The position numbers were made by a program, and so were the translations under genes. Of a stretch of 64,000 bases of DNA, positions 6,269 to 39,524 are shown piece by piece (positions within the stretch are counted from its first letter, which is position 1; every line of letters begins with the position of its first letter). Origin of the DNA: Lachnospiraceae bacterium (lineage in GTDB: Bacteria > Bacillota > Clostridia > Lachnospirales > Lachnospiraceae); contig JAGAIZ010000003.1 in the NCBI GenBank assembly GCA_017626325.1, positions 124,001-188,000 of the forward strand. Reading direction: 5' to 3'. Below the pieces are notes generated by a model, which was not told the DNA's origin, ran no database searches, and worked only from the letters and a program-made list of their open reading frames with translations.

Positions 6269-7765
6269 ATGCGCAAGAGATACAAGCTGTTAGTCTTATC
6301 AATATTGCTGACAGCGTTAGCATTTTGTTACAGTAAAATCGAAGACAGAAATGCTCAGCTTATACTGCGGGAAGATGAGAAACCGCAGATGATAGTCAGG
6401 ACAGACGACATGGAGCAGACAGTATGGCCGTGGTATGACGAGAGTGAGGATATTCTGTATTTCTTTTTGCCGTCATTTGTGGATACCGACACCATATATT
6501 TTGACAAAATATGGGGAAGCGGCGTGGAGATAGACGGTGAGAAGTATAGCTGGGGCGGCAGCTTTCAGTGGCAGGCCGGAAAGGTCTACCGTTTCCGGCA
6601 GATGAAAACAGATTTGACATACCGGATTGCTTTTGAGAAGTCGGAGAATCTGCCGGCGCTTTTTGTTCATACGGACAGCGGCAGTCTGGAATATCTGCAT
6701 GAAAACAAGGAGCATCAGGAACAGGGAATGCTTGCCGTTATTGCGGAGAATGGAAACATAGGATATCATGGCAGAATAGACAAGCTCTCAGGGCGCGGCA
6801 ACAGTACATGGGACTCTTATAAGAAGCCGTATTCGCTGACTCTGCCCGCATCTTATTCGTTATGCGGTCTGGAAGCCGGGGAGAAATGGTATCTGCTTGC
6901 CATGGCCTATGAATCTGATAAGATACATTCCAAAATGATGTATGATATGGCGCGGCAGATGGGAATGGAGTACGCGATTGAATCTACATGGGTGGATTTA
7001 TACTGTAACGGAGAATATCAGGGCTTGTATCTGCTGACAGAGTCGGTTACGGTTGGCGACGGCAGGGTTGAGATAGAAGCGCTGGAGGAGAATGATACGG
7101 ATATCAGCGGCGGGTATTTTCTGGAGAAGGAGACCTTTGATGCTGCAACGGTGCAGGAGCCTTATGTCTGTGCGGATTATGCCATGTTTATTGTCAGGTA
7201 TCCCAAAGCCCCGACCAAAGAGCAGCTTGCGTATATTTCCGGGTATATGAGATGGATTGAGCAAATGCTTCTGGCTAAGGATCCGGCATACCGGGATTAT
7301 GTGGACGTCGATTCGTTCGCGGATCATCTGATCCTGGAAAATATCGCGTTAGATGCCGATGGAATGATGCGGAGTACTTTCTTCTATAAGCGCAGGGGAA
7401 GCGATAAGCTGTATCTGGGGCCGGTATGGGATTACGACAGAGCCATGGGAGGAGGATATCCTGTGGAGCAATATGAAAATTCTGTATTTATGGTTGGAAT
7501 GGAAGTATGGTATGAAGCCCTTTACGCAGATGAATATTTCCGGGATACTGTAACAACCAGATATCAGTCGCTGCGCCCATATTTACAGTGGCTTCTGGAA
7601 TCGGGGATCGATACTTACGCGGATGAAATCAGGGCATCCGCAGAGATGGACCGTATTATGGAGAGGGCGCATAAGCAGACGCAGGATTACGATACGGCGA
7701 TTGAGGACTTGAAGGAGTACTTTGCCGGACGTCTGGAGTATCTGGATTCGTTGTGGGGAGAATAG
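6269..7765 (+). CDS. cotH: CotH-family protein (CotH 1)
   Basis: A 498-residue protein with an N-terminal hydrophobic segment (residues about 6-20) that would export or anchor it outside. The CotH kinase-fold motifs are intact: SGRGNSTW followed by KKPY around residues 174-187, VDLYCNGEYQGLYLLTE around 242-258, and GPVWDYDRAMG further on. Bacillus CotH phosphorylates spore-coat proteins, and related proteins occur widely in Clostridia with unknown substrates. It follows rfbG by 22 bases with AGAGG ahead of the ATG, so it probably shares that transcript. It is the first of five CotH-like proteins in the window. Kinase activity is inferred from the family. Confidence 0.88.
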   Translation: MRKRYKLLVLSILLTALAFCYSKIEDRNAQLILREDEKPQMIVRTDDMEQTVWPWYDESEDILYFFLPSFVDTDTIYFDKIWGSGVEIDGEKYSWGGSFQWQAGKVYRFRQMKTDLTYRIAFEKSENLPALFVHTDSGSLEYLHENKEHQEQGMLAVIAENGNIGYHGRIDKLSGRGNSTWDSYKKPYSLTLPASYSLCGLEAGEKWYLLAMAYESDKIHSKMMYDMARQMGMEYAIESTWVDLYCNGEYQGLYLLTESVTVGDGRVEIEALEENDTDISGGYFLEKETFDAATVQEPYVCADYAMFIVRYPKAPTKEQLAYISGYMRWIEQMLLAKDPAYRDYVDVDSFADHLILENIALDADGMMRSTFFYKRRGSDKLYLGPVWDYDRAMGGGYPVEQYENSVFMVGMEVWYEALYADEYFRDTVTTRYQSLRPYLQWLLESGIDTYADEIRASAEMDRIMERAHKQTQDYDTAIEDLKEYFAGRLEYLDSLWGE

Positions 7766-7776
7766 AAGAGGGAAGA

Positions 7777-7920
7777 TAGGTTGAAAAATCACTCTGATGA
7801 GCTGATTTTTCAATCCCAAATTTGTGCCGGAGCGTCACAAATTTGTCTGATGGCAGATGAGAAACCGCCTGCGCGGATTTCTCATCGCCTCTTCGCGACA
7901 GGGCGTTCAGAAATGAGGAT
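7777..7920 (+). repeat. 144-base three-hairpin element flanked by 11-base direct repeats
   Basis: Three inverted repeats sit in a row between cotH 1 and the next gene. The first is 7779-7815 (13-base stem with one wobble, arms ending TTGAAAAATCA / TGATTTTTCAA). The second is 7817-7845 (perfect 10-base stem CAAATTTGTG / CACAAATTTG). The third is 7856-7886 (GATGAGAAA.CCGC / GCGG.TTTCTCATC with a one-base bulge). The 11-base sequence TAGGTTGAAAA occurs at 7777-7787 and again at 7921-7931, where it runs into the next start codon. This looks like a small inserted palindromic element. Its 5' end recurs at two places in the kdp region. Confidence 0.75.
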
Positions 7921-7930
7921 TAGGTTGAAA

Positions 7931-8659
7931 ATGGAATTCACATACAAAGCATACGGAGAATTACTGGCGCTGTTAAGGCAGCAGGGCTATACATTCAGCA
8001 GTTATCACAATTATCAGGATTGTGACAGAAGTGTCATCATACGCCATGACATAGACATGGATATTGCCAAAGCTGTAAAGATGGCGGAAATGGAACAGGA
8101 AATGTGTGTTTCCTCCACATATTTCGTCCTCGTTACGAGTCATTTCTATAATATTTTTGCCAGGGAGAATCAGGACATGCTTCGGAAGATGCATGGCATG
8201 GGGCATGAGATCGGCCTGCATTTTGATGAGGCGAAATATGGCGAAGAGACGGATATGGTGCTGGCGATGGAGCAGGAAGCGGAGCTGCTTGCACAGTGCA
8301 TGGGAGTTCCGGTGAGGAGCGTTTCGATGCACAGACCTTCCAGGAAGACGCTTGAAGCGGATTATCTGGTGAAGGGCGGACAGATTGTCAACAGTTACGG
8401 GACGGAATTTTTCCGGAATCATAAATATGTGTCTGACTCCAGAAGGAACTGGAGAGAGGATGTTTTGGCCATTATCCGAAGCGGAGAGTATGACAGGCTG
8501 CATGTACTGACGCATGCTTTCTGGTATGACCAGACAGAACAGACTGCTAAGGAGACTTTGAAGGCTTTTTGCGAGGGCATGACCGGACGCTGTTATGAAT
8601 GGATGCAGGATAATGTGCGTGATCTGGATGAAATATTAAAACGATCGGAGTTAAGATAA
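7931..8659 (+). CDS. polysaccharide deacetylase-like protein
   Basis: Starting at ATG 7931 gives a 242-residue soluble protein. The frame is open further upstream, but that stretch lies in a three-hairpin element and is probably not translated. Visible residues fit a divergent metal-dependent NodB-type fold: RHDIDMD near residue 40, H-x-x-x-H in GHEIGLHFDEAKY, and SMHRPS. No signal peptide is seen, so it may act in the cytosol on a nucleotide- or lipid-linked sugar. Members of this group are often listed as polysaccharide deacetylase/WbmS-like in glycan loci. It stands between CotH 1 and the LpxD-like acyltransferase, a pairing that could deacetylate and then re-acylate an amino sugar. Confidence 0.65.
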   Translation: MEFTYKAYGELLALLRQQGYTFSSYHNYQDCDRSVIIRHDIDMDIAKAVKMAEMEQEMCVSSTYFVLVTSHFYNIFARENQDMLRKMHGMGHEIGLHFDEAKYGEETDMVLAMEQEAELLAQCMGVPVRSVSMHRPSRKTLEADYLVKGGQIVNSYGTEFFRNHKYVSDSRRNWREDVLAIIRSGEYDRLHVLTHAFWYDQTEQTAKETLKAFCEGMTGRCYEWMQDNVRDLDEILKRSELR

Positions 8660-8691
8660 CGCCGACCAAATCGGTGGAAATGGGGAAGAAT

Positions 8692-9579
8692 ATGGTAACA
8701 TTAGCGCAGATAGAAGCTTACTTGACACACAGGCAGATGGAATATAGAATACAGACAGCGGGTGAAGTGGTAATCGGGGGATTCTCCTCACTGGATCACT
8801 ATCAGCCCGGTACGGTTACCTGGATCAAATCAGCAGACAAATGGCACAATGATCTGCCGGAGATTGCGTTATGTGTCGTTCAGGAAGGGACGGATGTTCC
8901 GCTGCCGAATCAGATAATCTGCCGCAACTCCAAACAGGTATTTTTTATGCTGATAGAGCATTTCTTTGCCGTGGAGGAGGAAGAAGAACCGATAGGACGC
9001 AATACGGTGATCGGTCCAAGAGTGCGGCTTGGCAGGAATGTCAGAATAGGGCATAACTGTTCTGTTACAGGAGATGTGGTTATCGGGGATGATACCGTGA
9101 TTTCTGATAATGTTGTGATCAGGAACAGAGTGCGTATCGGCAGAAGATGCGTCATACAGGCATTGACGATGATTGGAGAAGATGGGTTCGGGGCATATGA
9201 GCAGGACGATCACCGGAAAGTTATGATCAGGCATTACGGCGGGGTCATGATTGGCGACGACGTTTTCATCAGCAGTCATGTGGATATAGAACGGGGAACG
9301 ATTGACGATACTGTGATTGGGGACGGCACGAAGATAGCGCCCTGTACGCTGATCGCGCATAATGCCAGAGTAGGCAAGGACGCCGTGCTGATCTGTTCCC
9401 ATTTGTACGGAAGCGCAGAAGTGGGAGATAACGGCTGGGTCGTTGGATCGATTATCAAAAACCAGTGCAGAGTAGGAGAGAACGCTATGGTAGGCATTGG
9501 TTCTGCGGTGACAAGAGATATTGAAGACGGTAAGGTTGCGGTGGGAATCCCGGCACACGTTATCAGGGACAACGTCTGA
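8692..9579 (+). CDS. LpxD-like hexapeptide-repeat acyltransferase
   Basis: The architecture is that of UDP-3-O-acylglucosamine N-acyltransferase (LpxD): an N-terminal domain of about 100 residues, then a left-handed beta-helix of hexapeptide repeats (IGRNTVIGPRVRLGRNVRIG and onward, ending VGENAMVGIGSAVTRDI..GKVAVGIPA). The catalytic-type histidine context CTLIAHNARVG is present. In Gram-negative bacteria LpxD builds lipid A; here a sugar N-acyltransferase role in surface-glycan synthesis is more likely because nothing else for lipid A is seen. The start is uncertain: GTG 8674, ATG 8680 and ATG 8692 are in frame, and 8692 gives the usual family N-terminus. The gene is 32 bases past the deacetylase stop. 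Confidence 0.8.
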   Translation: MVTLAQIEAYLTHRQMEYRIQTAGEVVIGGFSSLDHYQPGTVTWIKSADKWHNDLPEIALCVVQEGTDVPLPNQIICRNSKQVFFMLIEHFFAVEEEEEPIGRNTVIGPRVRLGRNVRIGHNCSVTGDVVIGDDTVISDNVVIRNRVRIGRRCVIQALTMIGEDGFGAYEQDDHRKVMIRHYGGVMIGDDVFISSHVDIERGTIDDTVIGDGTKIAPCTLIAHNARVGKDAVLICSHLYGSAEVGDNGWVVGSIIKNQCRVGENAMVGIGSAVTRDIEDGKVAVGIPAHVIRDNV

Positions 9580-9610
9580 GTATAGAATCTGAATAGAAAG
9601 AAGGCAGCCG

Positions 9611-10288
9611 ATGTATCGTGTAGAAGATAAATATTGCTGCAGTCCGAATGAAATGTTCCTGCTGCAGAGAAGAATAGGAGCAGTGCTGCGGCCCGACGCC
9701 AATGAGAGCAATCCGGAAGGGTACAGCATTATCAGTCTGTATTTTGACGATCTGGAGGATTCCTGTCTGCAGGATACTCTGGACGGGAACGAGCGACGTA
9801 ATAAGTATCGTATCAGAATCTACAACAATTCTCTGGATATGATCAAGCTGGAGGTGAAAGAGAAGCTGGACAGCAGGATTCGTAAGCGCTCTAAGAGGAT
9901 TACCGAGGAGGAAATGCGCAGGCTGATATGCGGTGAGCGTATTGAGGATTCGGCAAGGGCGGACGATCCGGCGACCATGTTTAATCTTGCCATTGCGTCG
10001 AGAGGGCTTAAGCCTAAGGTAATCGTCGCCTATGAGCGGAAGGCTTATGTGTTTGGGCCGGGCAATACGCGGATTACCTTTGATAGAAACATCCGCGCCA
10101 GCAGCCGCATAGAAGACTTTGGAAAGGCTGATCTTGTCTATGATTATATCAGGGAACAGGATTCGGTGCTGGAAGTCAAATATGATGAATTTATTCCGGG
10201 CTTCGTGCTGCAGCTTCTGGAGCTTGGGAATATGCAGCAGACCGCGTATTCCAAATACCGGCTGGGAAGAGAATTGTATCTGGGTTAA
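9611..10288 (+). CDS. VTC-domain polyphosphate polymerase (copy A)
   Basis: A 225-residue protein consisting of the VTC triphosphate-tunnel domain alone. The charged tunnel residues are visible in order: E-x-K in VEDKYCC, YFDD, K-x-R-x-R in NKYRIRIYN, LEVKEK, the YERKAY segment, TRITFDRN, LEVKYDE and SKYR at the end. In yeast Vtc4 this domain polymerises ATP gamma-phosphate into polyphosphate; bacterial single-domain versions are poorly studied. There is no membrane segment, so it acts in the cytosol. It is followed by the DUF4956 membrane protein, the same pairing seen at 34.3-35.7 kb, which suggests a two-part complex. Confidence 0.88.
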   Translation: MYRVEDKYCCSPNEMFLLQRRIGAVLRPDANESNPEGYSIISLYFDDLEDSCLQDTLDGNERRNKYRIRIYNNSLDMIKLEVKEKLDSRIRKRSKRITEEEMRRLICGERIEDSARADDPATMFNLAIASRGLKPKVIVAYERKAYVFGPGNTRITFDRNIRASSRIEDFGKADLVYDYIREQDSVLEVKYDEFIPGFVLQLLELGNMQQTAYSKYRLGRELYLG

Positions 10289-10436
10289 TGGTTTCTATAG
10301 GGGTGGCTGAACTGTTACTATCATTTAAATAAAGCGTAGCATATGTTTGAAAAGGACAGATAAAAAGGAAACCAACAAAAAAAGAGGCGGACCGGAATGT
10401 AAAGTAACTGAAACGGTCAACCGGAATGGAGGAAAC

Positions 10437-11117
10437 ATGTCAATCAAAGATGTTATTAAAAACAGTGTATACGAAAGCCTGGGCGGCGGAACCAATCTGT
10501 CGGCGTCGAATATTCTGCTGCTGATTGGAATCGCCTGTCTTGTGGGGATATATATCTTCACGGTATATAAGTGGTCCTGCAAGTCGGCTTTTTATTCGAA
10601 GGATCTGAATGTTACCATGGCGGGACTGCCGCTTATCATCGCCGCGATTATGATTGCAATGCAGTCCAATCTGCTGGTTTCCCTTGGTATGGTGGGCGCG
10701 CTGTCCATCGTCAGATTCCGTAATGCGGTGAAGAATCCCATCGATTTATTATATTTGTTCTGGTCTGTCAGCGCGGGTATTATTGTCGGTGTAGGGCTCT
10801 ACATACTGGCGTTTATACTCTGTATTGTGATGACGATACTGCTTCTTTTATTGGATATGGTTCCGAACGCAAAAGCGCCGGATCTGCTGGTGCTTCGTGC
10901 GGGCGCTGAGGATATGGATTATGAGAAACTGGAGAGTATTCTCAAGGAAGGCTGTAAATACCATAAGGAGAAGTCCAGAAGTATTAAGAACGGCGACGTG
11001 GAGCTGATCATAGAGATCAGGACGTCCAGGAAAGAAGAAGTGCTGGGGAAGATTACAGCGATGGAGAATATGACGCAGATTTCCTGCATTTCCCATGACG
11101 GCGAGTGCAGAGTATAG
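10437..11117 (+). CDS. DUF4956 membrane protein (copy A)
   Basis: ATG 10437 is preceded by GGAGG at good spacing and gives 226 residues; the longer open frame is unlikely. Three or four hydrophobic helices fill residues about 20-130. They include MVGALSIVRFRNAVKNPIDLLYLFW, the hallmark of DUF4956, where basic residues lie in or beside the membrane. A cytosolic alpha/beta tail of about 80 residues follows. It sits downstream of a VTC polymerase gene, as does copy B. By analogy with yeast VTC, where a membrane domain passes nascent polyphosphate across the bilayer, a channel role is plausible but unproven. A terminator hairpin follows. Confidence 0.85.
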   Translation: MSIKDVIKNSVYESLGGGTNLSASNILLLIGIACLVGIYIFTVYKWSCKSAFYSKDLNVTMAGLPLIIAAIMIAMQSNLLVSLGMVGALSIVRFRNAVKNPIDLLYLFWSVSAGIIVGVGLYILAFILCIVMTILLLLLDMVPNAKAPDLLVLRAGAEDMDYEKLESILKEGCKYHKEKSRSIKNGDVELIIEIRTSRKEEVLGKITAMENMTQISCISHDGECRV

Positions 11118-11141
11118 TCTGTGTATGGCGATATAACAGAT

Positions 11142-11180
11142 AGGGGTGTCCGCAGCATATGCCGCGGGCGCCCCTTTAAT
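11142..11180 (+). terminator. rho-independent terminator after DUF4956 copy A
   Basis: A GC-rich hairpin (AGGGGTGTCCGC / GCGGGCGCCCCT, two G-T wobbles) is followed by TTTAATT on the plus strand. It ends the plus-strand unit and overlaps the stop of the convergent CotH gene. Confidence 0.7.
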
Positions 11181-12996
11181 TGCTGTAGATGATCGTGTCG
11201 CTGAAGATAGGGCGCAGATTATCATAAGCTTTTCCGTTTTCGAAATGGAATGTCTCACAATGGAAATGTTCCATTACTTCTTCTATCACCTCATCGGGAA
11301 TGGTCATGCCGTCTTTGATCCAGTATTCCGTGTCACGATAGACGGCGCCCGGAGCGGTGTTGACAAACAGAATATAGTGATAATTCTCCGGATGATTGAA
11401 GCGGTCATACAGGTGTTCAAGACGCAGGCCGATATAGTATTCCAGGTAAGAGACGGAGGAGTCGTAATCATCATAGGCAGGAGAGTGATAGCCCTTATCC
11501 TGCCAGCGCACAGTGTCCATTGTGATCGACGGCGCAATCCGTTCGATGAGCGCAGGAATATGATCGGAAAGATATTCCTGCATGAGCGGGTAGGCCAGTT
11601 CGTTGTATTTTTTTATTACCGCGTCGCGGAAGTATTCTATGGCAAACAATTCCTCGCAATAGCCTGTCGGATATGCATTCAGATCAGCCACGTATCCGCG
11701 TTCCGCACGTCCCCATGCGTTGTCATAATCCCACACAGGACCGGCATATAATTTGCCTCCCTCTGTATCGCTCATTTTATAATAATAGGTCGAGGCAATA
11801 TTGGAATCGATGTCATTGGTAATAGCATTCACCAGATACATGTCTACGAAAGAATCGATATCAATATATTGTCCCAGATTCTCATATTTTTCATACGAAT
11901 CACAGTCTTTGATGTAATCTTCTACGGTGTTCATATATTCTGAGACAGCTTCTAATTCCGCTTCCGAAACAGGAGTTGGATTCTTGACGAGGAAATCCCG
12001 CATACCGGTTACCTGGAATACCTGATCGTCTTCCTCGATTCTGTCATGCAGTATTTTCTCAATCAAATAGCCGTCCTGGATATCGATGCGGCTTTCAAGC
12101 AGCTCTACCTTCTCGCATAACAGATAATTACCGGCGTATTCTCCATTGAAGTAAAGATCTACGTATTCCGTGTCTACGATGTATGGCATCTGCAGATCCT
12201 TGCAGTATTCATATACGATCTTATTGCGCAGATAGGTTCCGTCAAAGGCGTTTGCCTGCAGGATATATTTGTCGGCATATCCCATGGACAGGACATTGGC
12301 AGCGGCCTCGAAGGTAATCTGGAAGCCTTTTTTCTCCACATCATAATAACTGGAATTGCCGTGCCCTTTGATAGCGGCGAGGGAACCCTGACTATCGATA
12401 CTGCCGTCCGCATTCAAACAGATAAACGCTCCGGGTTCTTTGTATTCTTTGGAAGAATTGATGTAATCAATGGAGCCTGTGGCGGTGGAGAGAAAGACTG
12501 CCGGCAGGTTTTCTGACTGCATAAACGTAATCGTGCGCGACAGCGTATCGGTATTCTCTTCATGAGTCTCTCGGATAGTCAGCGCGTATTCTGTATCGGC
12601 GGCGTAGGCGCTCAGTTTGTCGCCTGTATGAACAGGAATATTGTCTATGGTCATCTCATAGAGGGTCTCGTCATACCGGATGGTATATTCCTGCAGCAGA
12701 GCGCAGGAGGGAAGGAAAAAATAGCAACTGCCGGATTTGTTGCAGTAAAGGCTGATATCAGGAAGAACGGCATTCTCCGGTGCGCGAAGGAAGATATCCA
12801 GATAACCGCCGGAGCCGTTCAGAATATCGTGGTCTGACGGGGAAGATGTCGTTTCTTGTGATAAAGTATAAGACGGATTTTCGTTGGAAACCTCCCGGAG
12901 CGTATAATAGCGTACCACAACACCCAAGCCGCCCGCAAAGACCAGACAGAGGATAAGAGTAGATATTGTGTGAAAATGTTTCATTTTTATATGCAT
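11176..12996 (-). CDS. cotH: CotH-family protein (CotH 2)
   Basis: A 606-residue exported CotH protein on the opposite strand to its neighbours. It starts with a basic stretch and a hydrophobic segment (FHTISTLILCLVFAGGLGVVV), then a region of about 100 residues rich in Asp/Ser/Thr. The CotH domain has KGHGNSSY (Arg of GRGN replaced by His), then KKGF, then VDLYFNGEYAGNYLLCEKVE and an intact GPVWDYDNAWG. The C-terminal part after the kinase fold (about 80 residues, YHYILFVNTAPGAVYRDTEYWIKDGMTIPDEVIEE) has a counterpart in CotH 3 and CotH 5, so it may be a shared accessory domain. Its gene lies between a VTC/DUF4956 pair and a giant surface protein. Confidence 0.87.
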   Translation of the reverse strand: MHIKMKHFHTISTLILCLVFAGGLGVVVRYYTLREVSNENPSYTLSQETTSSPSDHDILNGSGGYLDIFLRAPENAVLPDISLYCNKSGSCYFFLPSCALLQEYTIRYDETLYEMTIDNIPVHTGDKLSAYAADTEYALTIRETHEENTDTLSRTITFMQSENLPAVFLSTATGSIDYINSSKEYKEPGAFICLNADGSIDSQGSLAAIKGHGNSSYYDVEKKGFQITFEAAANVLSMGYADKYILQANAFDGTYLRNKIVYEYCKDLQMPYIVDTEYVDLYFNGEYAGNYLLCEKVELLESRIDIQDGYLIEKILHDRIEEDDQVFQVTGMRDFLVKNPTPVSEAELEAVSEYMNTVEDYIKDCDSYEKYENLGQYIDIDSFVDMYLVNAITNDIDSNIASTYYYKMSDTEGGKLYAGPVWDYDNAWGRAERGYVADLNAYPTGYCEELFAIEYFRDAVIKKYNELAYPLMQEYLSDHIPALIERIAPSITMDTVRWQDKGYHSPAYDDYDSSVSYLEYYIGLRLEHLYDRFNHPENYHYILFVNTAPGAVYRDTEYWIKDGMTIPDEVIEEVMEHFHCETFHFENGKAYDNLRPIFSDTIIYSN

Positions 12997-13108
12997 AGAT
13001 TGGTCACCTGTTGCTGTTATGATCTGTTGTTATCTTTTATCATCTTAGCCTAAAAGAAAATAGAATTCAATAAGAGAGTGAGATGGCAATGATTTCTAAT
13101 ACATTTTT

Positions 13109-13137
13109 ACTGGAAAAGATTTTGAAATGTGTTATTA
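13109..13137 (+). promoter_or_regulatory. candidate promoter for the glucosaminidase surface protein
   Basis: TGGAAA and TATTAT (13132-13137) are separated by 16 bases, about 40 bases ahead of the proposed GTG start at 13175. The -35 match is weak. The -10 overlaps the most upstream ATG of the open frame (13127), which argues against that ATG as the start. Confidence 0.3.
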
Positions 13138-13174
13138 TACAGGTAGACATAACATACCTAAAGGGAATTTGAAA

Positions 13175-18747: not shown

Positions 18748-18765
18748 AGAAAAATTTGCAATTAG

Positions 18766-25386: not shown

Positions 25387-27579
25387 ATGAGTAAAGAACG
25401 GATCAAAAGGATTGTCAGCATAGCGGTACCCGTCTTGTTTATGGGCGTGGTGGTTTTCTGCGTCTGTTATTACCATAATGTATACAGACAGCCGGAGGAA
25501 GCGGCACAGGATAATCATGTTACAATAGAAGACCGGGAGCCGCAGGAAGAAGCGCAGCAGCAGGACACCTCGGAAGAGACAGAAGCAAATCAATATGATG
25601 ATGAGGGATATCTGGATATCCGGGCTGGTCTGACCGGTATGGGCGACGCGGAAAGCGTCAAATTATATGTGCAGAACGATACGTGTTATTTCTTCCTGCC
25701 GGCTTATGCGGACGCTGGACAGATTGTGTGGCAGTTTGATGAAGAACGATATGAAGTTCTGCTCGACGGACAGGCCGTCAGAGACGGCGACCGTCTGGAA
25801 ATGACGGGCATAAGCAATACCGTGTATGAAGCCAGGACGGATGGGACGGCGGCCGAAACAGACGAGACGAAGACCGAAACAGGCGGGACGAAGACCGAAA
25901 CAGACGAGACGAAGACTGAAACAGACGGCGCGGCAGTCGGGACGGCAGACGAAGAGCAGGAGCGGACGCTTCAGATCAGACGGCAGACGGACGCGGACAC
26001 GGTGGAATACAAGCTGCGGGTCATGAAGTCAGAGTCTTTGCCTGCAATATTTATTGATACGGACAGTCAGGCAATGACTTATCTGGAACAGGACAAAGAG
26101 CATGAAGAAACAGGAAGCTTTGTCTGTATTTCCGCTGCGGGGGAGAAGGATTCAGGAGGCGTGCTTGACAAGATATCCGGCAGAGGCTATTCCAGCTTCA
26201 GCGCAGCCAAAAAGTCTTATACCATTACACTTGAAGAAGCGCAGCCGGTGCTGGGCATGAGCAGCGCCTGCAAATGGGTGCTGCAGGCAAACGCTCTTGA
26301 CCTGACCCGGATGCGCAACAAGACGGTCTATGATATGGCGAAGGATATGGGGGTTCCTTATGCGGTGGATTCGGCATATGTGGATCTGTATTTTAACGGA
26401 GAATATGCCGGTAATTATCTGGTGTGCGAGAAAATAGAAGCTTCGCCCAACCGCATGGATATCGGAGAGGATTATCTGTTAGAAGGAATCTTCGCCAGCA
26501 GATCGGAAGAAGAAATCGACTGCTTCCGGAGTGAGGCGGGCTGGTATGAGGTTAAGAATCCCGAAGAAGTCACGGAGGAAGATCTGGAATTTCTGGCGGA
26601 CTATATGGACAGAATTGTGGAACTGATCGAAGGCTGCGATACGGAGGAAGCGTATAAGAACCTGCAGCAATATATAGATATTGAATCCTTCGCGCAGATG
26701 TATTTATTGGATGAATTGACCAATGAGCCGGATCTGAACAGAGCCAGTACCTTCTATTTTATCAGACAGGAAGGAGACGACAGGAAGCTTTATGCCGGAC
26801 CGGTGTGGGATTATGACAGATCGCTGGGGAATGTTGAAGGCGCGAAATACGATAACCTGACCTGTCTGTCGCCGGGGCTGGGAGAGAAGCTTTTTGCGTG
26901 CAAATATTTCAGGATGTATGTCACGGAGCGCTTCGCCGGACAGTATGAGCAGATAATCAGACAATATCTGGAGAACAGGATACCGGATTACAGCGAATAT
27001 ATCCGCGCGTCGATCGCGATGGACGGGATTCGCTGGGGTTCTCAGGAGAATAACAGTTATGTCAATACGAATCCGGTCTATTCTACTTTCGACGATGCGG
27101 TCAGATACATGACTTATTATCTGAATGCCAGATATGAACTGATTCGAGGCTATCTGTATGAACCGGACAGGTATCATCAGATCGAGTTTGTTAATACTGG
27201 TTCCAAAGTGGAGTACGACAGCCGCAGATACTGGATTGTGGATGGAGAGACTGTGCCGGAGGAGGTGACGGCATATCTGGAAGAGATTTTCCAGTGCAAC
27301 GGATGGACCTTTGCGGACGGCAGGCGCTGTCAGGTGAACAGGCCGGTATTCGGCGATATGAAGGTGTATTCCTACGTGGATCAGAGTAAGCTCGAAGAAA
27401 CGCAGACGCAGACGGAAGCACAGGAAGAGCAGGAACAGGTAAACGCAGGATATAGTAAGAGGTTCGTATTTTTCTGTATGATGGCGTCAGCGGGCGCTGC
27501 CGGCGTGTGCGGTATTGCGCTGGGATGGCTTGCGCACAGGATGAGATCAAAGAAGAAAGACAAAAGCCGGAAGGAGTAG
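25387..27579 (+). CDS. cotH: CotH-family protein with C-terminal membrane helix (CotH 3)
   Basis: A 730-residue protein anchored at both ends: a helix at about residues 12-30 and another near 690-712, followed by a Lys/Arg-rich tail (MRSKKKDKSRKE), so the kinase-like domain should lie outside the cell. Before it are an acidic Gln/Glu linker and a TETDETK-type repeat. The domain carries SGRGYSSF (Asn of GRGN replaced by Tyr), KKSY, VDLYFNGEYAGNYLVCEKIE and GPVWDYDRSLG. The post-domain module (FVNTGSKVEYDSRRYWIVDGETVPEEV) resembles that of CotH 2. It is downstream of the GT-C gene. Activity is inferred; the replaced Asn is a caution. Confidence 0.87.
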   Translation: MSKERIKRIVSIAVPVLFMGVVVFCVCYYHNVYRQPEEAAQDNHVTIEDREPQEEAQQQDTSEETEANQYDDEGYLDIRAGLTGMGDAESVKLYVQNDTCYFFLPAYADAGQIVWQFDEERYEVLLDGQAVRDGDRLEMTGISNTVYEARTDGTAAETDETKTETGGTKTETDETKTETDGAAVGTADEEQERTLQIRRQTDADTVEYKLRVMKSESLPAIFIDTDSQAMTYLEQDKEHEETGSFVCISAAGEKDSGGVLDKISGRGYSSFSAAKKSYTITLEEAQPVLGMSSACKWVLQANALDLTRMRNKTVYDMAKDMGVPYAVDSAYVDLYFNGEYAGNYLVCEKIEASPNRMDIGEDYLLEGIFASRSEEEIDCFRSEAGWYEVKNPEEVTEEDLEFLADYMDRIVELIEGCDTEEAYKNLQQYIDIESFAQMYLLDELTNEPDLNRASTFYFIRQEGDDRKLYAGPVWDYDRSLGNVEGAKYDNLTCLSPGLGEKLFACKYFRMYVTERFAGQYEQIIRQYLENRIPDYSEYIRASIAMDGIRWGSQENNSYVNTNPVYSTFDDAVRYMTYYLNARYELIRGYLYEPDRYHQIEFVNTGSKVEYDSRRYWIVDGETVPEEVTAYLEEIFQCNGWTFADGRRCQVNRPVFGDMKVYSYVDQSKLEETQTQTEAQEEQEQVNAGYSKRFVFFCMMASAGAAGVCGIALGWLAHRMRSKKKDKSRKE
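25854..25933 (+). repeat. 21-base in-frame tandem repeats inside CotH 3
   Basis: Almost four copies of a 21-base unit (CGAAACAGACGAGACGAAGAC and variants) encode TETDETK, TETGGTK, TETDETK and TETDGAA. The period is a multiple of three, so slippage would change the linker length without shifting the frame. Confidence 0.85.
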
Positions 27580-28264: not shown

Positions 28265-28294
28265 TTGATAGTGATATATGATTTGAGGTACAAT
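28265..28294 (+). promoter_or_regulatory. candidate promoter for the GT2 gene
   Basis: TTGATA (28265-28270), an 18-base spacer, then TACAAT (28289-28294). It would start transcription close to the ATG at 28306, leaving almost no leader, so either the true start is the second ATG (28315) or another promoter is used. Confidence 0.35.
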
Positions 28295-28305
28295 ACATAG
28301 GAAGT

Positions 28306-29064: not shown

Positions 29065-29086
29065 ATGAAAGAGTAAAGGTGCTTTG

Positions 29087-30847: not shown

Positions 30848-30909
30848 CTGCCCGGATCACCGCATCAGTGCCGTAACTGCCGGAACCGCCGCATCAGTGC
30901 TGTAACAGC
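30841..30909 (+). repeat. 29-base tandem repeat across two convergent gene ends
   Basis: Two 29-base units (30841-30869 and 30870-30898, a few mismatches, each starting GCCGTAACTGCC and ending CCGCATCAGT) are followed by a third partial unit starting GCTGTAAC. The first unit contains the stop of the GT-C gene and the second the stop of the convergent GT2 gene. Confidence 0.8.
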
Positions 30910-31913: not shown

Positions 31914-32025
31914 CGTAATCCTCCATTCGTGTTGTGTTCGTAAGTTATGTGTTAAGATGACCTTATTGTAGCTTTTTTACGGATTGTTTGCAAGCGGAGG
32001 ACAGACAATAGAAGGTGTGAAATCA

Positions 32026-33099: not shown

Positions 33100-33152
33100 G
33101 CCGGTTATCGCCCTGATTACAGCGGCGTAATGGAGTAGCATGGAGGAGCATA

Positions 33153-34277: not shown

Positions 34278-34335
34278 TATAAGGGTAGAATAAGAAGAGT
34301 GTTTATGAAGCGGAAGAAAGCAGAAAGGAGACGGG

Positions 34336-35028
34336 ATGCTTTCTGTACTTAGAAGTGAACTGAAATACTGGATCAGTTATCGGGACAGCCTTATGCTGCA
34401 GGCGGAGTTAGAGGAACTGCTGATGCCGGACGCATATTCGCAGGATGGCTTTTACCGGGTGAAAAGTCTGTATTTCGATTCCATCAATCAGGTGGATTTT
34501 ATAGAGAAGTTAGACGGTGTGGAATCCAGAAAGAAGATCCGTATGCGGATTTATGATGAGGATACGGAGACTGTCAAGCTGGAATGCAAACAAAAGCGCG
34601 GGGCGCTGCAGCACAAGGAGAGCCTGCTGATTGGCAGGACGGAGGCTAAGCGGTATATGGAAGGCGATTACGGCGGACTGCTGGAACGGCCGGAAGAGAC
34701 TGCGTGGCGTTTATACACGGATATGACGCTGGGGTGTTACCGTCCCGCAGTCATGATAGAATATGACAGATGCGCTTATCTGTACGGAGAATACAACACG
34801 CGTATTACGATTGACAGAAATGTCCGCAGTTCGGAGCTTTGCCTGGATTTATTTGAGAAGCAGATACCGTGGATTCCCACCATTGACGATCAGGTGATTC
34901 TGGAAGTGAAGTTTAATGAGAAGCTGATAGAACCGATCAGGCGTATCCTGGCGAAATACCATCTGACCAATGTATCAGTCAGCAAGTATGGAAGCGGACG
35001 CCCGATTCTGGAACAATATATTGTATAA
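34336..35028 (+). CDS. VTC-domain polyphosphate polymerase (copy B)
   Basis: A 230-residue single-domain VTC protein with AGAAAGGAG before ATG 34336. Tunnel residues are kept: E-x-K in RSELKYWIS, YFDSINQ, K-x-R-x-R in RKKIRMRIYDED, VKLECKQKRG, the segment EYDRCAYL, TRITIDRNVRSS, ILEVKFNEK and SVSKYGSGRP. It shares this motif order, but little overall identity, with copy A at 9.6 kb. It begins a compact block VTC - DUF4956 - degenerate CotH - CotH 5 with gaps of 23 bases, an overlap and 73 bases. This is the clearest sign that the three families work together. Confidence 0.88.
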   Translation: MLSVLRSELKYWISYRDSLMLQAELEELLMPDAYSQDGFYRVKSLYFDSINQVDFIEKLDGVESRKKIRMRIYDEDTETVKLECKQKRGALQHKESLLIGRTEAKRYMEGDYGGLLERPEETAWRLYTDMTLGCYRPAVMIEYDRCAYLYGEYNTRITIDRNVRSSELCLDLFEKQIPWIPTIDDQVILEVKFNEKLIEPIRRILAKYHLTNVSVSKYGSGRPILEQYIV

Positions 35029-35051
35029 ATAGAACAACGGAGGAAAAACAG

Positions 35052-35723
35052 ATGTCAAAGAAGGATATATTGGAGTGGTTTACTGCAAACGGAGAGGCGC
35101 TTGGCGTGGACAGGATTCTGTTTGTACTTTGTATGGCGCTGGTGATTGCAGCGGTTATCTTCATTACCTACAGACTTGCCTATACGGGCGTCAGTTATAA
35201 CAGCAGATTCAATGCGAGCAACGTGGCCATCGTCATGATTACTGCGGTAATCATGCTGATGATCAGCAGCAATATAGCGATTTCTTTGGGTATGGTGGGC
35301 GCGTTATCGATTGTGAGATTCAGAACGGCCATTAAGGATCCGGCGGATACGGTCTACATCTTCTGGGCGATCGTAGAGGGATTGTGCGTGGGTGCGCAGA
35401 TTTATAAGCTGGCTGTCGTATCCACCCTGTTTATTGCCATTATTTTGCTGGCGCTCAGCTATTACGCAAGCATACAGAGAAAGTACCTGATTATTGTGCG
35501 CGGTACGAAGGAAGTGGAATTAGAGCAGGTGAAACAGTGTCTTGCGCCGTATTATCCGAAGGTGCATGTGAGAGCGTCTAATTATACAGGCGAGCGCTGT
35601 GAGATCATATGCGAAGTGTCCGCATACCGGGAGATCAAAGAAGAGGCAGTCGGGGCGCTTAAGGCCTGTGAGCATGTCAGCGGTGTGAACTGGTTATTAG
35701 AAATGGGAGAACGTGTCGGATAA
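35052..35723 (+). CDS. DUF4956 membrane protein (copy B)
   Basis: A 223-residue protein with a GGAGG site before ATG 35052. Three or four helices lie in residues about 18-135, with the DUF4956 core SLGMVGALSIVRFRTAIKDPADTVYIFWAI, nearly identical in the middle to copy A (GMVGALSIVRFR). A cytosolic tail of about 80 residues follows. Arg/Lys residues at the membrane surface could contact an anionic polymer such as polyphosphate. The stop and the next start overlap as TAATG, so CotH 4 is translationally coupled to it. Confidence 0.86.
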   Translation: MSKKDILEWFTANGEALGVDRILFVLCMALVIAAVIFITYRLAYTGVSYNSRFNASNVAIVMITAVIMLMISSNIAISLGMVGALSIVRFRTAIKDPADTVYIFWAIVEGLCVGAQIYKLAVVSTLFIAIILLALSYYASIQRKYLIIVRGTKEVELEQVKQCLAPYYPKVHVRASNYTGERCEIICEVSAYREIKEEAVGALKACEHVSGVNWLLEMGERVG

Positions 35724-37198
35724 TGAAGAAGAGACCTGTTTGGATAGGCTGTCTGATCATAGCTTTCGCCTGTTGTGTACTGCTGTTCCATGTCGTAGAT
35801 AATATGGAGTTCTGCGGCCTGCGGGTTCAGACTGAGGAGTGGCTGGAAGCAAAGACGGCTGAGATGCATTTTGTGGACAAGCCGGAGAATGTGGATGAAT
35901 TGATACAACTGGACGGCCAGCGGATTCCTTATGACCGGTCCGGGAATACTTTTTATGTGAGCCAGTCAACGGAGGCAGCAGAGTATGCCGGAACCTTTCA
36001 GGCTATGGGCGATAATTGTGAGATTTATATACAGCGTGACGAGGCGCTTGGGGATAAACAGTCGGCGATTGCGCAGGGGCATGTGTTTAAGCTGTGGTTT
36101 CTGACCGCAGACACATGCACGACGGCGAATCTGGTTTTCTCAGGACTGCCTGTTCTTAGTATCGGAGCGGAAGCCGACTCGCTTACCGCGGCTTACGCGC
36201 AGGGAGATATGGTTGTATACAATCCTGATGATACGGATATCAACGGCATGAGCGTGAAACAGTCCGCGGTGACTGTAAAGCAGAATGAAAATACGGGGAC
36301 GATCACGTTCAGGCTTTATAAGAAGGCTTATAAAGAGGAGAGGAATCTGTCGCTGCTCGGATTGGGAAAGCATACTTCTTGGAAGCTGTATCAGGTTTCT
36401 GAAAAAGATGACACTTTTGTCAGAACACTTTTGTCCGTCTATGTCTGGAACGGCGTCTGTGGGGACGAGAGCTTACAGCGCGGTATGGGTCTGGCGGAGG
36501 TCATAGTCAATGACCGGTATGCCGGGCTGTATTATCTGGCGCCCAAGGCGGGCAAGGGATTCCTGGGGCTTCAGGAGACAGACCGGATATATGAATGCGA
36601 GGATATGCTGGAGGATGGCACACAGGTCTTTGAAGTGGTCGGAGACGAGGATATACCGGAGAACTATGCACAGCTTGACGCTTATCAGTCCGTGCTTGCT
36701 GATCTGTCGGGGGAGAATATAAGCCGGATCGATCTGGACAATTATATCAACTATCATATTTATCTGCAGGCAGTCTGTGGGATTCGCAATAGTCAGGAAG
36801 AATATTATGTGATCGCACAGAATCAGGGGAACGGTTATCTATACCGCAGATGGCCGGAGCCGACAGAATATGTCTGGGGATTGTATCCTTCCAGAATCGG
36901 CTGGCAGTCTCTTACCGCTGCGGAGAATATTATGGAGGATGAGGCCTATCATCTGATTGTGGAGCAGGATGCGTCTGTGGCGGCTTATACAACTGAGCGG
37001 TGGAACGAACTGAGACAGAGCGTGCTGTCTACGGAGGTGCTTACGCAGGCGGCGTATGCCTATGAGAAGAGACTGGCGGACGGAGGATATATTGTCAGAG
37101 AGGCGCAGCAGGAAACTTATAATGATTCGTGCGGCGTGTTACAGGATATGATAATAAAGCGTATGGATTATCTGGACAGTTATTTTAACGGTTCATAA
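35723..37198 (+). CDS. degenerate CotH-like protein (CotH 4)
   Basis: A 491-residue protein with an N-terminal helix (residues about 7-24) and an overall plan matching CotH proteins: a beta-rich exported region, then a helical part. The middle motif survives in altered form (AEVIVNDRYAGLYYLAPKAG against VDLYFNGEYAGNYLLCEKV). The GRGNS-W motif is replaced by LGLGKHTSW, and GPVWDYD by EYVWGLYPSRIG, so the metal- and ATP-site residues appear lost. It may be a pseudokinase, perhaps a scaffold or activator for CotH 5, whose gene follows. Assignment rests on position, length and partial motifs; no other family is recognised. Confidence 0.6.
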   Translation: MKKRPVWIGCLIIAFACCVLLFHVVDNMEFCGLRVQTEEWLEAKTAEMHFVDKPENVDELIQLDGQRIPYDRSGNTFYVSQSTEAAEYAGTFQAMGDNCEIYIQRDEALGDKQSAIAQGHVFKLWFLTADTCTTANLVFSGLPVLSIGAEADSLTAAYAQGDMVVYNPDDTDINGMSVKQSAVTVKQNENTGTITFRLYKKAYKEERNLSLLGLGKHTSWKLYQVSEKDDTFVRTLLSVYVWNGVCGDESLQRGMGLAEVIVNDRYAGLYYLAPKAGKGFLGLQETDRIYECEDMLEDGTQVFEVVGDEDIPENYAQLDAYQSVLADLSGENISRIDLDNYINYHIYLQAVCGIRNSQEEYYVIAQNQGNGYLYRRWPEPTEYVWGLYPSRIGWQSLTAAENIMEDEAYHLIVEQDASVAAYTTERWNELRQSVLSTEVLTQAAYAYEKRLADGGYIVREAQQETYNDSCGVLQDMIIKRMDYLDSYFNGS

Positions 37199-37271
37199 TT
37201 TCCGATACGTGTTACGCAGTTATTTGTGCCTGCGCCCGGATGCCCAGGCTGAGCAGGAATGGGAGATTAAG

Positions 37272-39524
37272 ATGAAAAACAGAATAGCAAATTTTATTCT
37301 GCTTGTATTATTTGCCGGAGCCATTCTGTACTGTATCAGCTATCCGGGGACAGATGGAGATGAGTATGCTAAGGAAGGGCAGCAGCGGGTGGTGATTCTT
37401 GCGGAGGAGACAACTGAAACTGCGTCCGCAGAGGATGCGCAAGAAGCGGATCCCTATGAAGAAGACTATCTTCCGGTCAGCGTGACGGCAGGGTGCGACA
37501 GCGTTACCCGGGAAATCAGTCTGTATGTGTCGGAGGGAGTCTGCTATGCATTTCTGCCTGCTTATGCAGATCTGACAAAAGTGTCATTTGTGTTTGGCGA
37601 GGGTTGCGAGGTACGGCTCTCCGGCAGACAGCTTACGGCAGGAGAAATCTTACAGCAGATAGAAATCGGTATGGAATATGAGCTGGACATCACAGACCAG
37701 AAGCAGAACACGCTGCATTATGCCATGGTGTTTATGCAGTCGCAGAATATGCCTGCGGTGTTTATCGATACGCAGTCCGGTTCTATGGATTATGTGGATG
37801 CCGTCAAGGGGAACGAAGAGTCGGGGTATTTTACCTGTGTGACGGAGGATGGCGGGATTGACAGTGAGAGCGCTATGAACCGGATCAGAGGAAGAGGGAA
37901 TACCAGTTGGGGCGGAATCGGCAGGAAGAACCAGTATAATGTTCAGCTTGCGGACGCTGCGGACGTGATGCATATGGGAAGCGCACAGAACTGGATTATT
38001 CAGGCGAATAAGCTGGATGTGTCCATGATGCGCAATAAGCTTGCATATGACTTCGCAAAGGATCTCGGCGTGCCCTATGCGGTAGACAGCGAATTTACGG
38101 ATATGTATTTTAACGGCAGATATATGGGCACGTATCTGGTAATTGAGAAGATAGAGACAGGCGCTAACCGTATTGACATCGATGCGGAAGAAGGCTATGT
38201 GATCGAGCGGGATTTCAGGGAGAAGGATCCGAACAAATCTTTCGGGATCAGTTACGGAACCTATGCCATACGGTCGCCGAAGGATACCACAGAGGAAGCC
38301 CATGATTATATCGCGGATTATGTGAATCGGGCTGCGGAAAGCATCACGAAGGCAGCGGACAGCGATGAATATCTGGATTATATCGATATCAATTCCTTCG
38401 CCAAACTCTTTATTATGAATGAGATCAGCAATGACCCGGACGGCAATGCGCTCAGCACGTATTTCTATAAAGCGGACCGGACAGATCAGACGAAACTCAC
38501 GGCAGGACCGGTATGGGATTTTGATATCGCCTTCGACAACGACGAGAGAGGCGACGATATACTGGGGAGCAATTACGGTGAGGAGTGGTTTCAGGATCTG
38601 TACCGGAGCGAGGCCTTCCGGGCGGAGGTAGCCAGTGTGCTTCGCGATATCATGGAAGAAAAGTATGAAAAATACAGCACGCAGTATTTCGACGATATCA
38701 AGGCGTATCTGGAGCCTTCCTGGCGTATGAACGAGATACGGTGGAAGGAGAAGCGCGGATATATCGCATCGGTCTACCCGGACTTCGACGGGACGCTGGG
38801 CTATCTGGAATACTATTTTATGACAAGGCTTGAGAATCTTAATCAGGTTTTTAACGGAGAAGAGCAGTTCCATAAAGTAGAGTTCGTGGTGGGCGGACTG
38901 CAGTTTGCCCACGTTTATGTGCGGGACGGAGAGTTGATTCCGGCGCAGACGCTCCAGGGCATCACGGATTATTACGGCAGAGCGAAATGGCGGCTTACGA
39001 ATGACCAGGAGATCGACCCTGATACCTACAGGGTGTTTGAGGACGTCAGGATCAAATGCCGTTCCATAAGAAATGACGAAGAGACGGATATGGAGGACGA
39101 TGAGGACACATCCGGTGCGATTGGGACCGGGGACGATCAGAAGGGAGAACTGGCGATGCAGTGGATCAGTTTTATTATGTTGATGGTGCCGGGGCTGATT
39201 GCCGTATGGATCAGCGGCAACACCCGGATGAAAAGGGAGAACGCGTTTGCGATTGTGCTGCAGTATTTATGCAACAGCTTTGTCATTCTGCTGCTGGCAT
39301 ACGGAATATTCTACGTATTGTACGGCAGCGCGCTGCTGAGCTTCTCCGACAGCTATGACGAGACATATCAATTCAGTATCTATCATATTAACGTTACGTT
39401 TAAATATTTGCTTCTGACAGGAATACTGGCGGCAGGCGTCGGCGCGGCGGAACGTATTATGGGTACGGCGCTTAGAAAGCGGCAGAAGCGGCAGGGGGCG
39501 GATGTGTGGACAGGATTAAAGTAG
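37272..39524 (+). CDS. cotH: CotH-family protein with C-terminal membrane helices (CotH 5)
   Basis: ATG 37272 (GGGAG six bases ahead) gives 750 residues. An N-terminal helix (IANFILLVLFAGAILYCI) is followed by an acidic linker and the CotH domain with RGRGNTSW, RKNQYNVQL, TDMYFNGRYMGTYLVIEKIE and GPVWDFDIAFDND. A post-domain module ends near residue 620. Three or four further membrane helices follow (around WISFIMLMVPGLIAVWI, YLCNSFVILLLAYGIFYVLY, YLLLTGILAAGVGAAERI). The extra helices set it apart from the other CotH proteins here. It stands next to DUF4956 copy B and CotH 4, and overlaps the next gene by 19 bases. Confidence 0.87.
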   Translation: MKNRIANFILLVLFAGAILYCISYPGTDGDEYAKEGQQRVVILAEETTETASAEDAQEADPYEEDYLPVSVTAGCDSVTREISLYVSEGVCYAFLPAYADLTKVSFVFGEGCEVRLSGRQLTAGEILQQIEIGMEYELDITDQKQNTLHYAMVFMQSQNMPAVFIDTQSGSMDYVDAVKGNEESGYFTCVTEDGGIDSESAMNRIRGRGNTSWGGIGRKNQYNVQLADAADVMHMGSAQNWIIQANKLDVSMMRNKLAYDFAKDLGVPYAVDSEFTDMYFNGRYMGTYLVIEKIETGANRIDIDAEEGYVIERDFREKDPNKSFGISYGTYAIRSPKDTTEEAHDYIADYVNRAAESITKAADSDEYLDYIDINSFAKLFIMNEISNDPDGNALSTYFYKADRTDQTKLTAGPVWDFDIAFDNDERGDDILGSNYGEEWFQDLYRSEAFRAEVASVLRDIMEEKYEKYSTQYFDDIKAYLEPSWRMNEIRWKEKRGYIASVYPDFDGTLGYLEYYFMTRLENLNQVFNGEEQFHKVEFVVGGLQFAHVYVRDGELIPAQTLQGITDYYGRAKWRLTNDQEIDPDTYRVFEDVRIKCRSIRNDEETDMEDDEDTSGAIGTGDDQKGELAMQWISFIMLMVPGLIAVWISGNTRMKRENAFAIVLQYLCNSFVILLLAYGIFYVLYGSALLSFSDSYDETYQFSIYHINVTFKYLLLTGILAAGVGAAERIMGTALRKRQKRQGADVWTGLK

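Follow-up and report, generated by a model that had tools for sequence, protein, structure and literature searches.

Why should genes for five CotH-like proteins lie interleaved with two pairs of VTC and DUF4956 genes in a single bacterial locus? The locus spans positions 6,269 to 39,524 of a stretch of 64,000 nucleotides, here called the window, from a Lachnospiraceae bacterium (assembly GCA_017626325.1, contig JAGAIZ010000003.1, positions 124,001 to 188,000; G000:C24:124001-188000 in our handles, where G, C and L numbers denote genomes, contigs and loci). The draft genome comprises 3.1 Mb in 88 contigs and is 92% complete. An earlier annotation made from the letters alone, the sequence-only reading, had named five CotH genes and two VTC-DUF4956 pairs, and Pfam confirmed all nine. 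We find that the association of the three families is real and wide, not a product of chance, and that the exported partner of a VTC can be predicted from its lineage: CotH for one clade, Cthe_2159 lipoproteins for the other. We favor, at a probability of roughly 0.42, a reading in which the unit is a device for phosphate export and extracytoplasmic phosphorylation, with VTC and DUF4956 making and exporting polyphosphate for exported CotH proteins held by a pseudokinase.

The survey covered 199 genomes of the phylum and 60 of the family, both samples including the two VTC places of this genome. Second pieces or fragments of one frame (among them 5 and 3 rows in two of the searches), two PelG matches and the Cthe_2159 rows below the cut-off, and the Cthe_2159 row G224:C46, which lay just at the cut-off, were dropped before counting. 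One CotH row below the cut-off (G176) was retained, and VTC fragments and contig-edge copies were kept in the denominators. VTC and DUF4956 occurred in an identical set of 25 of the 199 phylum genomes. CotH was present in 27 (one below the cut-off), 23 of them shared with VTC (hypergeometric P = 7e-24). Within 5 kb of VTC, DUF4956 was found at 31/32 places and CotH at 21/32. The family sample held VTC in 47 genomes, DUF4956 in 46 of these, and CotH in 32 (30 with VTC; P = 0.002); here DUF4956 lay within 5 kb at 59/63 VTC places and CotH at 21/63. Under a null that places CotH uniformly at random within its genome, and that does not cover clustering of surface genes, 0.23 of 32 and 0.46 of 63 CotH-near places would be expected, against 21 and 21 observed. 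Co-occurrence within 5 kb beyond chance, for which the sequence-only reading had called for a survey, is thus borne out.

The pairing of VTC with DUF4956 is closer still. Only five VTC places had no DUF4956 within 5 kb; three of these genomes carry it on another contig (G062, G232, G247), and the remaining two places (G223, G213:C53) are short partial matches. Evolutionary distances of the two proteins correlate (rho 0.83 over 77 pairs; none of 999 permutations as high). Among 14 control genomes, VTC and DUF4956 were both present in Bacteroides ihuae, Corynebacterium glutamicum and the archaeon Methanosarcina acetivorans, and CotH in Corynebacterium glutamicum, Methanosarcina acetivorans and Bacillus subtilis.

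At places without CotH, DUF4956 is often followed by a gene for a lipoprotein with a Cthe_2159 carbohydrate-binding domain (PF14262; 6/6 candidates scanned). In the family sample, 21 VTC places had only CotH, 21 only Cthe_2159, 21 neither and none both (Fisher P = 3e-5). The corresponding phylum counts were 21, 6, 5 and 0 (P = 5e-4), and the two partners occurred together in 0/95 place rows across both samples. To this we can add a phylogeny of 81 VTC proteins (quick tree search, Shimodaira-Hasegawa-like approximate likelihood-ratio (SH-aLRT) support, midpoint root), representing 70 of 93 distinct sample places plus 11 relatives from the genus. Its main split leaves 46 proteins on one side (CotH 40, neither 6, Cthe_2159 0), a count in which close kin are over-represented, all 11 genus relatives, labeled CotH, falling there; in one of them, L135, the CotH pair lies about 8 kb from VTC. 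The other side holds 35 proteins (Cthe_2159 19, neither 15, CotH 1). With the rows that have neither partner excluded, two changes explain the partner on the tree. The lone CotH label in the Cthe_2159 clade (G240:C153) is a 36-bit partial Pfam match, unconfirmed by our own CotH profile, and the label was kept. Four genomes (G022, G105, G106, G189) carry both VTC lineages, each copy with its own partner, and the match is therefore not a by-product of species kinship. As far as the literature we searched shows, this correspondence is new.

The VTC places with neither partner (21/63 in the family sample, e.g. G245, G206, G210, G207, G215, G212 and G241) fall mostly on the Cthe_2159 side of the tree. 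Several family genomes with such places carry a Cthe_2159 gene on another contig.

The two VTC proteins of the window belong to different subclades of the CotH side. VTC1 shares a subclade of 24 rows with all three Pel-linked VTCs (support 86). VTC2 belongs to the other CotH subclade; outside the genus it is closest to G163, G229 and G213, which have operons of the HEAT/GT2 layout. Two module lineages, old and distinct, are therefore present in the window. VTC1 and VTC2 are 32-33% identical and the two DUF4956 proteins 30%, and recent (tandem) duplication of the pairs is ruled out by this divergence (32% and 30%) together with the different VTC subclades. In named contigs, the closest VTC2 relatives are from Lachnospiraceae or Clostridia, the best 91% identical over VTC2 (contig search, three contigs). 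A VTC domain is also encoded in three short, unannotated human-faecal records labeled 'Bacteriophage sp.' (MT836222, MT838813, MT837266), which may be host contigs.

Within the second block, one CotH protein stands apart. Bacillus CotH is reported to be inactivated by a change at Asp228 or Asp251 (PMC7821199), and we placed the equivalents of these residues by their 23-residue spacing in an alignment to the Protein Data Bank (PDB) structure. CotH1, CotH2, CotH3 and CotH5 keep both, along with the Glu of the xYxGxYLxxE motif and a loop Gly. CotH4 has none of the four and yet scores above the Pfam CotH cut-off. The Glu and both Asp are absent from 11/11 CotH4-type proteins and kept in 41/41 other CotH proteins of the alignment, and the loop Gly is likewise missing in CotH4 and its 10 orthologues. 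The alignment near the second Asp varies between two runs, neither of which gives CotH4 an Asp there. A Pfam CotH match at E<=0.1 was found in 10/11 of these proteins, and comparison of their profile with the CotH profile gave 99.9%, a partly circular value because CotH4 is one row of the CotH alignment. The sequence-only reading had counted CotH4 among the CotH proteins; its family membership holds, and its predicted pseudokinase nature had been missed.

Our search for CotH4 took in 98 related genomes, 38 from the order and 60 from the genus, this genome among the latter. At E 3e-67 or better, CotH4-type matches occurred in this genome and 10 others, all of the same genus; eight more genomes gave only weaker matches, to other CotH proteins. 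A CotH4 search of genome contigs found no relative. The order DUF4956-pseudokinase-CotH is kept in 11/11 loci, with VTC directly upstream in 10, and the one-base overlap of DUF4956 and pseudokinase is seen in the window and in 7/10 relatives. Ratios of nonsynonymous to synonymous substitution (dN/dS) for six pairs of relatives were 0.13-0.22 for the pseudokinase, 0.16-0.23 for the paired kinase and 0.03-0.11 for DUF4956. For four of these pairs dS approached or exceeded 1, and loci are shared between pairs. Judged from its sequence, CotH4 is a maintained pseudokinase and not a relic; a decaying pseudogene was rejected on its full-length frames in 11 genomes and on the dN/dS of 0.13-0.22.

The proteins of the unit carry features suited to a transfer across the membrane. 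VTC1 and VTC2 are 225 and 230 amino acids long, without membrane segments, and VTC was the sole domain found in them. In VTC profile searches, yeast Vtc4 (1e-18) scored better than the yeast subunits Vtc2 (4e-11) and Vtc3 (2e-8). The equivalents of Vtc4 K200, R264, R266, K281, K294, R361, R373, E426, K428 and K458 are kept in 81/81 VTCs, window copies included, where the placement of E426, K428 and K458 depends on an additional, weakly aligned piece (-0.8 bits) with clear motifs; the K458 equivalent of VTC2 is K217. For K200, K281, K294, R361, R373 and K428 the numbers are those we take to be correct for Vtc4, placed by the same offset. The numbering of R264, R266 and E426 follows PMC9911596 and that of K458 follows PMC4641920, which calls K458 catalytic. 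DUF4956-2 shows three clear hydrophobic segments in a hydropathy plot. Arg residues at positions 89 and 91 are present in 77/77 DUF4956 proteins and are the sole charged residues conserved at >=90%. The yeast channel for nascent polyphosphate is reported to be lined with basic residues of the transmembrane helices, the loss of which abolished the vacuolar polyphosphate store (PMC9911596).

The CotH profile matches Bacillus CotH (PDB 5jd9) at E = 9e-48. Single-sequence PDB searches with VTC2 and CotH1 gave nothing useful; profile searches matched. An N-terminal export or anchor segment, defined as a hydrophobic segment above our own hydropathy threshold, is predicted in 43/43 CotH proteins examined at the window or at VTC loci (5 of the window, 18 of VTC loci, 10 pseudokinases and 10 paired kinases), in agreement with the sequence-only reading, which had them exported.

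The mechanism that we favor builds on direct observations: the genes and their linkage, the export signals, the residue patterns, the match between VTC lineage and partner, and selection on the pseudokinase. With a polymerase in the cytoplasm, an arginine-bearing protein in the membrane and a kinase outside, a hand-over of phosphate from inside to outside is the simplest reading. The cytoplasmic VTC domain would make polyphosphate from ATP, as its residues suggest, and DUF4956 would carry the chain through the membrane as it grows, the part played in yeast VTC by the transmembrane domains. Outside, where there is no ATP, an anchored CotH may phosphorylate an envelope polymer, protein or glycan, and would probably draw its phosphoryl groups from exported polyphosphate or from phosphate derived from it. 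In the VTC2 quartet, CotH4, whose gene overlaps that of DUF4956, may hold or activate CotH5 as Fam20A does for Fam20C, a role suggested by that precedent (PMC4421793). The sister VTC-DUF4956 lineage would serve Cthe_2159 lipoproteins in place of CotH.

A more specific version has the exported CotH proteins using VTC-DUF4956 polyphosphate as donor, or attaching chains at the surface, with the pseudokinase docking the kinase at the exit of a DUF4956 channel. We consider it quite improbable; if true, it would mean self-contained phosphorylation outside the bacterial cell without ATP. The CotH-domain gene sfz6 of stalk-forming Zetaproteobacteria is reported along with a stalk cluster, and next to that cluster a gene for an ATP-ADP antiporter is described as conserved; sfz6 itself is located elsewhere in two genomes (PMC8250860). 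This case may be a loose hint that exported CotH proteins need a supply of phosphate donor.

Several points weigh against the phosphate-export mechanism. We know of no CotH that uses polyphosphate as donor, and Bacillus CotH uses ATP. In the family sample, 42/63 VTC places have no CotH within 5 kb. The CotH4-type pseudokinase is confined to 11/60 genomes of the genus and 0/38 others, and in L135 VTC is not directly upstream of DUF4956 but six genes away. The weakly aligned piece behind E426, K428 and K458 belongs here too. DUF4956 profile searches of the PDB found no relation to the membrane parts of yeast VTC or to Vtc1, giving only weak matches that are likely due to chance. At the tunnel entrance, 80/81 VTCs (one gap) carry a Glu where Vtc4 has Thr; tunnel enzymes of the tripolyphosphatase type have Glu at this position (a pattern in part from PMC4641920). 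Finally, deletion of the polyphosphate-polymerase gene of Streptococcus intermedius (SIR_1593) comes with no loss of aggregation in the account of PMC12345266, although the deletions of CotH and of SIR_1592 (probably DUF4956) do, and VTC may therefore not act upstream of CotH in that species.

The same species supplies the case for a regulatory module, in which VTC-DUF4956 would set cytoplasmic polyphosphate or phosphate signals and CotH would phosphorylate parts of the envelope synthesis machinery and so tune its output, with no phosphate exported. Deletion of SIR_1592, a gene for a protein with four transmembrane segments that is probably DUF4956, is reported to give more Pel and less aggregation, and deletion of CotH less Pel (PMC12345266). 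This regulatory-looking pattern fits regulation at least as well as it fits phosphate export. The relative in S. intermedius is described as a membrane part of the MgtC type that bears an ACT domain, and as having four transmembrane segments, and regulation through phosphorylation or phosphate metabolism is suggested in both Pel papers (PMC7112168, PMC12345266). However, the VTC-adjacent CotH proteins carry export segments, which would place them away from ATP and cytoplasmic enzymes, and 4/10 relatives have the block without evident glycan genes around it. We regard a regulatory module as somewhat unlikely. VTC could instead catalyze a different tunnel-enzyme reaction, such as that of a tripolyphosphatase or of a transferase that uses a nucleoside triphosphate, with the trio handling a triphosphate-containing donor for some other surface modification. 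Reactions are said to vary widely among tunnel enzymes with similar residues (PMC4641920), and 80/81 VTCs have Glu at the second position of the N-terminal motif; on the other side, the K428 and K458 equivalents are present in 81/81 and Arg replaces the first motif Glu in 80/81 (one gap), which is polymerase-like. We regard this explanation as unlikely.

Is the set simply part of a Pel system? CotH, a polyphosphate polymerase and DUF4956 were described together in Gram-positive Pel loci in 2020 (PMC7112168). The proposal of the sequence-only reading that CotH works with polyphosphate machinery was therefore not the first, the set being already in print. A 2025 paper states that, by its analyses, the three-gene arrangement was not found outside the Pel locus (PMC12345266). 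In our samples, however, PelG lay within 15 kb at 3/40 distinct CotH-adjacent VTC places and was absent at 37/40, some of them on short contigs; the set commonly sits in a non-Pel setting, which is new as far as the searched literature shows. This genome gave no PelG match, and no Pel-named family, hence no contiguous pelDEADAFG, appeared among 34 window proteins scanned. A Pel remnant was rejected for lack of a PelG match. That an accessory set was left behind by, or moved out of, a Pel locus gains something from the published association and from the VTC1 subclade with its Pel-linked members, but VTC2, grouped with HEAT and GT2 operons, speaks against it together with the PelG counts, and we hold it to be very improbable. 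At the Pel-linked loci themselves, L107 (G105:C5), L115 (G217:C39) and L116 (G240:C40), CotH lies upstream, not downstream, of VTC-DUF4956, and L107 has two tandem CotH genes with the catalytic residues kept in both.

Chance or hitch-hiking would have CotH and VTC-DUF4956 gather independently in a variable surface-glycan island. The island is indeed rich in glycan and surface genes, and none of CotH1, CotH2 and CotH3 stands directly in line with a VTC pair. The observed adjacencies far exceed expectation, partner follows lineage, and block order is kept in relatives outside such an island. As a general explanation, chance is barely credible: the survey refutes it for VTC-DUF4956 and for the quartet, and for CotH1, CotH2 and CotH3 it may hold.

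What might the unit act on? The sequence-only reading had named the glycan or the giant proteins encoded between the genes as targets. We fetched 13-19 kb around the block in each of the ten genus relatives; Pfam covered part of L134, L137, L138 and L140, and other genes were assigned by similarity to window genes and by order. The block sits in an island like that of the window in L132, L133, L135 and L139. In L137 it adjoins relatives of both giant proteins and of glycosyltransferases, and in L138 it lies between a glycosyltransferase and a response-regulator gene. Its neighbors in L134 and L136 are a GH42 beta-galactosidase and a LacI-type regulator. In L140 and L141, lysA/hisF-type genes flank one side; the other side in L140 has polA, coaE and a GH25 lysozyme. 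No glycan locus was evident around the block in 4/10 relatives (L134, L136, L140, L141; 13-19 kb, with Pfam for L134 and L140 only), and relatives of the giant proteins were near it in 1/10 (L137). The block is thus also found apart from glycan and giant-protein genes, and those of the window are therefore not its general targets.

The positions of the nine genes are given in Table 1. VTC2, DUF4956-2, CotH4 and CotH5 are consecutive, as their coordinates bear out, and VTC1-DUF4956-1 lies beside the convergent CotH2. TAATG coupling, which the sequence-only reading had extended to the whole second block, holds at DUF4956-2/CotH4 only (35721-35725); VTC2 and DUF4956-2 are separated by 23 bases, and CotH4 and CotH5 by at least 10. 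CotH5 has an alternative start, an ATG at 37272. For DUF4956-1, the ATG at 10437 is a more probable start than the TTG at 10347, because its relative in L142 starts at that ATG. Promoter-like matches between 30.8 and 45.2 kb numbered 16, against 17.0 (sd 3.8) in shuffled sequence, and terminator-like matches 15 against 9.3 (sd 2.9); neither marked clear operon boundaries there. An NCBIfam scan of ten proteins gave no informative name. Two further CotH matches lie elsewhere in the genome, at C24:109393 and C58:9125.

Table 1. CotH, VTC and DUF4956 genes of the window, with Pfam scores and predicted features.
Gene	Position	Strand	Features
CotH1	6269-7765	+	Pfam CotH (PF08757) 127.5 bits; N-terminal hydrophobic segment; Glu, D228- and D251-equivalents kept
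VTC1	9611-10288	+	Pfam VTC (PF09359) 126.4 bits; checked Vtc4 tunnel residues kept; predicted cytoplasmic triphosphate-tunnel domain
DUF4956-1	10437-11117 (frame opens 10347)	+	Pfam DUF4956 (PF16316) 46.8 bits; R89/R91-equivalents kept; membrane protein
CotH2	11176-12996	-	Pfam CotH 144.7 bits; export segment; catalytic residues kept
CotH3	25387-27579	+	Pfam CotH 133.2 bits; predicted exported; C-terminal membrane segment; catalytic residues kept
VTC2	34336-35028	+	Pfam VTC 126.3 bits; Vtc4 tunnel residues kept; first gene of the quartet
DUF4956-2	35052-35723	+	Pfam DUF4956 45.3 bits; R89 and R91 kept
CotH4	35723-37198	+	Pfam CotH 26.1 bits (cut-off 23.8); predicted pseudokinase; TAATG overlap with DUF4956-2
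CotH5	37209-39524	+	Pfam CotH 120.8 bits; catalytic residues kept; C-terminal membrane segments

The surroundings form a surface-glycan island (Pfam; genes scanned to 51.9 kb), with an LbH transferase, GT2, GT4 and GT8 glycosyltransferases, a UDP-sugar dehydrogenase and epimerase, YdjC, MBOAT, DltD-like and GtrII proteins. It also encodes two giant secreted proteins with Big_2 and BspA-type leucine-rich repeat domains. Two nucleoside triphosphate (NTP) transferases, a DegT-family aminotransferase and a sugar dehydratase/epimerase-type gene stand in line at 2138-6246; we take them to resemble the CDP-3,6-dideoxyhexose pathway (RfbF/G/H). At the end of the glycan island (44997-50808), a DltD-like gene, two MBOAT genes and GtrII make up a set for O-acylation and glucosylation.

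These findings take the CotH/VTC/DUF4956 set beyond the Pel field and point to a membrane module whose exported partner, one of at least two alternatives, goes with its lineage. Where kinases outside bacterial cells obtain their phosphate donor is, to our knowledge, not settled, and the unit suggests an answer that is concrete and testable.

Several known systems resemble parts of the unit. Like the yeast VTC complex (Vtc4 with Vtc1 and Vtc3; PMC9911596), it ties a cytoplasmic tunnel domain to a small membrane protein with conserved arginines; unlike it, the window proteins lack an SPX domain and detected likeness to Vtc1 and are separate polypeptides, and their activity is predicted from sequence. 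The Bacillus spore-coat kinase CotH (PMC7821199) belongs to the same family, and its D228 and D251 have equivalents in the four intact CotH proteins of the window. Four short spore-type CotH proteins that we examined differ from the window CotH in having no export segment (0/4) and no adjoining VTC. The Gram-positive Pel accessory set, reported from streptococci, clostridia and bifidobacteria (PMC7112168, PMC12345266), shares the three adjoining families, with an exported CotH, a protein of four transmembrane segments and a polyphosphate-polymerase domain. The window differs from it in the absence of PelG, in two divergent pairs within one island, in a pseudokinase between DUF4956 and kinase, and in having five CotH genes. 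A further context of the set is an exopolysaccharide (EPS)-type locus on a Pseudobutyrivibrio xylanivorans plasmid, pNP95, which carries CotH-VTC-DUF4956.

The order VTC-DUF4956-CotH also recurs in Clostridium perfringens NELoc-2 and on a Planococcus maritimus plasmid (NZ_CP059541.1); beyond its own genus, VTC2 comes closest to operons of this type. NELoc-2 is described as VTC, a 226-amino-acid protein, a resolvase, VTC, a 222-amino-acid protein, CotH, a hypothetical protein, HEAT and a chitin-synthase-like glycosyltransferase (PMC2879425). The genes for 222-226 amino acids, called tubulin/FtsZ GTPase there, would by size and place be DUF4956. The plasmid reads VTC-DUF4956-CotH-hypothetical-HEAT-glycosyltransferase, and a qatC gene (Qat anti-phage) lies about 5 kb beyond. 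In L103, L114 and L117, VTC-DUF4956-CotH is followed by proteins of about 700, about 370 and about 460-530 amino acids, as judged by size and order, with HEAT and GT2 domains confirmed in L103 only. The layout of these loci and the plasmid may represent a synthase-dependent polysaccharide system shared with NELoc-2. Unlike the window, NELoc-2 and the plasmid have no pseudokinase and carry HEAT and glycosyltransferase genes next to the set, which the window lacks at that place.

For the pseudokinase, the closest likeness is Fam20A-Fam20C of the animal secretory pathway (PMC4421793), in which a paralogue without catalytic residues stands beside an intact kinase, both outside the cytosol; the corresponding gene pairing was found in 11/11 loci. 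We found no CotH pseudokinase-kinase pair in print in open-licence PubMed Central (PMC) text, in a search little aimed at CotH pseudokinases, and the Fam20 evolution paper PMC5865150 does not mention CotH. The window pair differs in belonging to a bacterial CotH family and in being known from genes, binding or activation being suggested by analogy. As a conserved pseudokinase-kinase pair, CotH4 and CotH5 would be a bacterial parallel to Fam20A-Fam20C.

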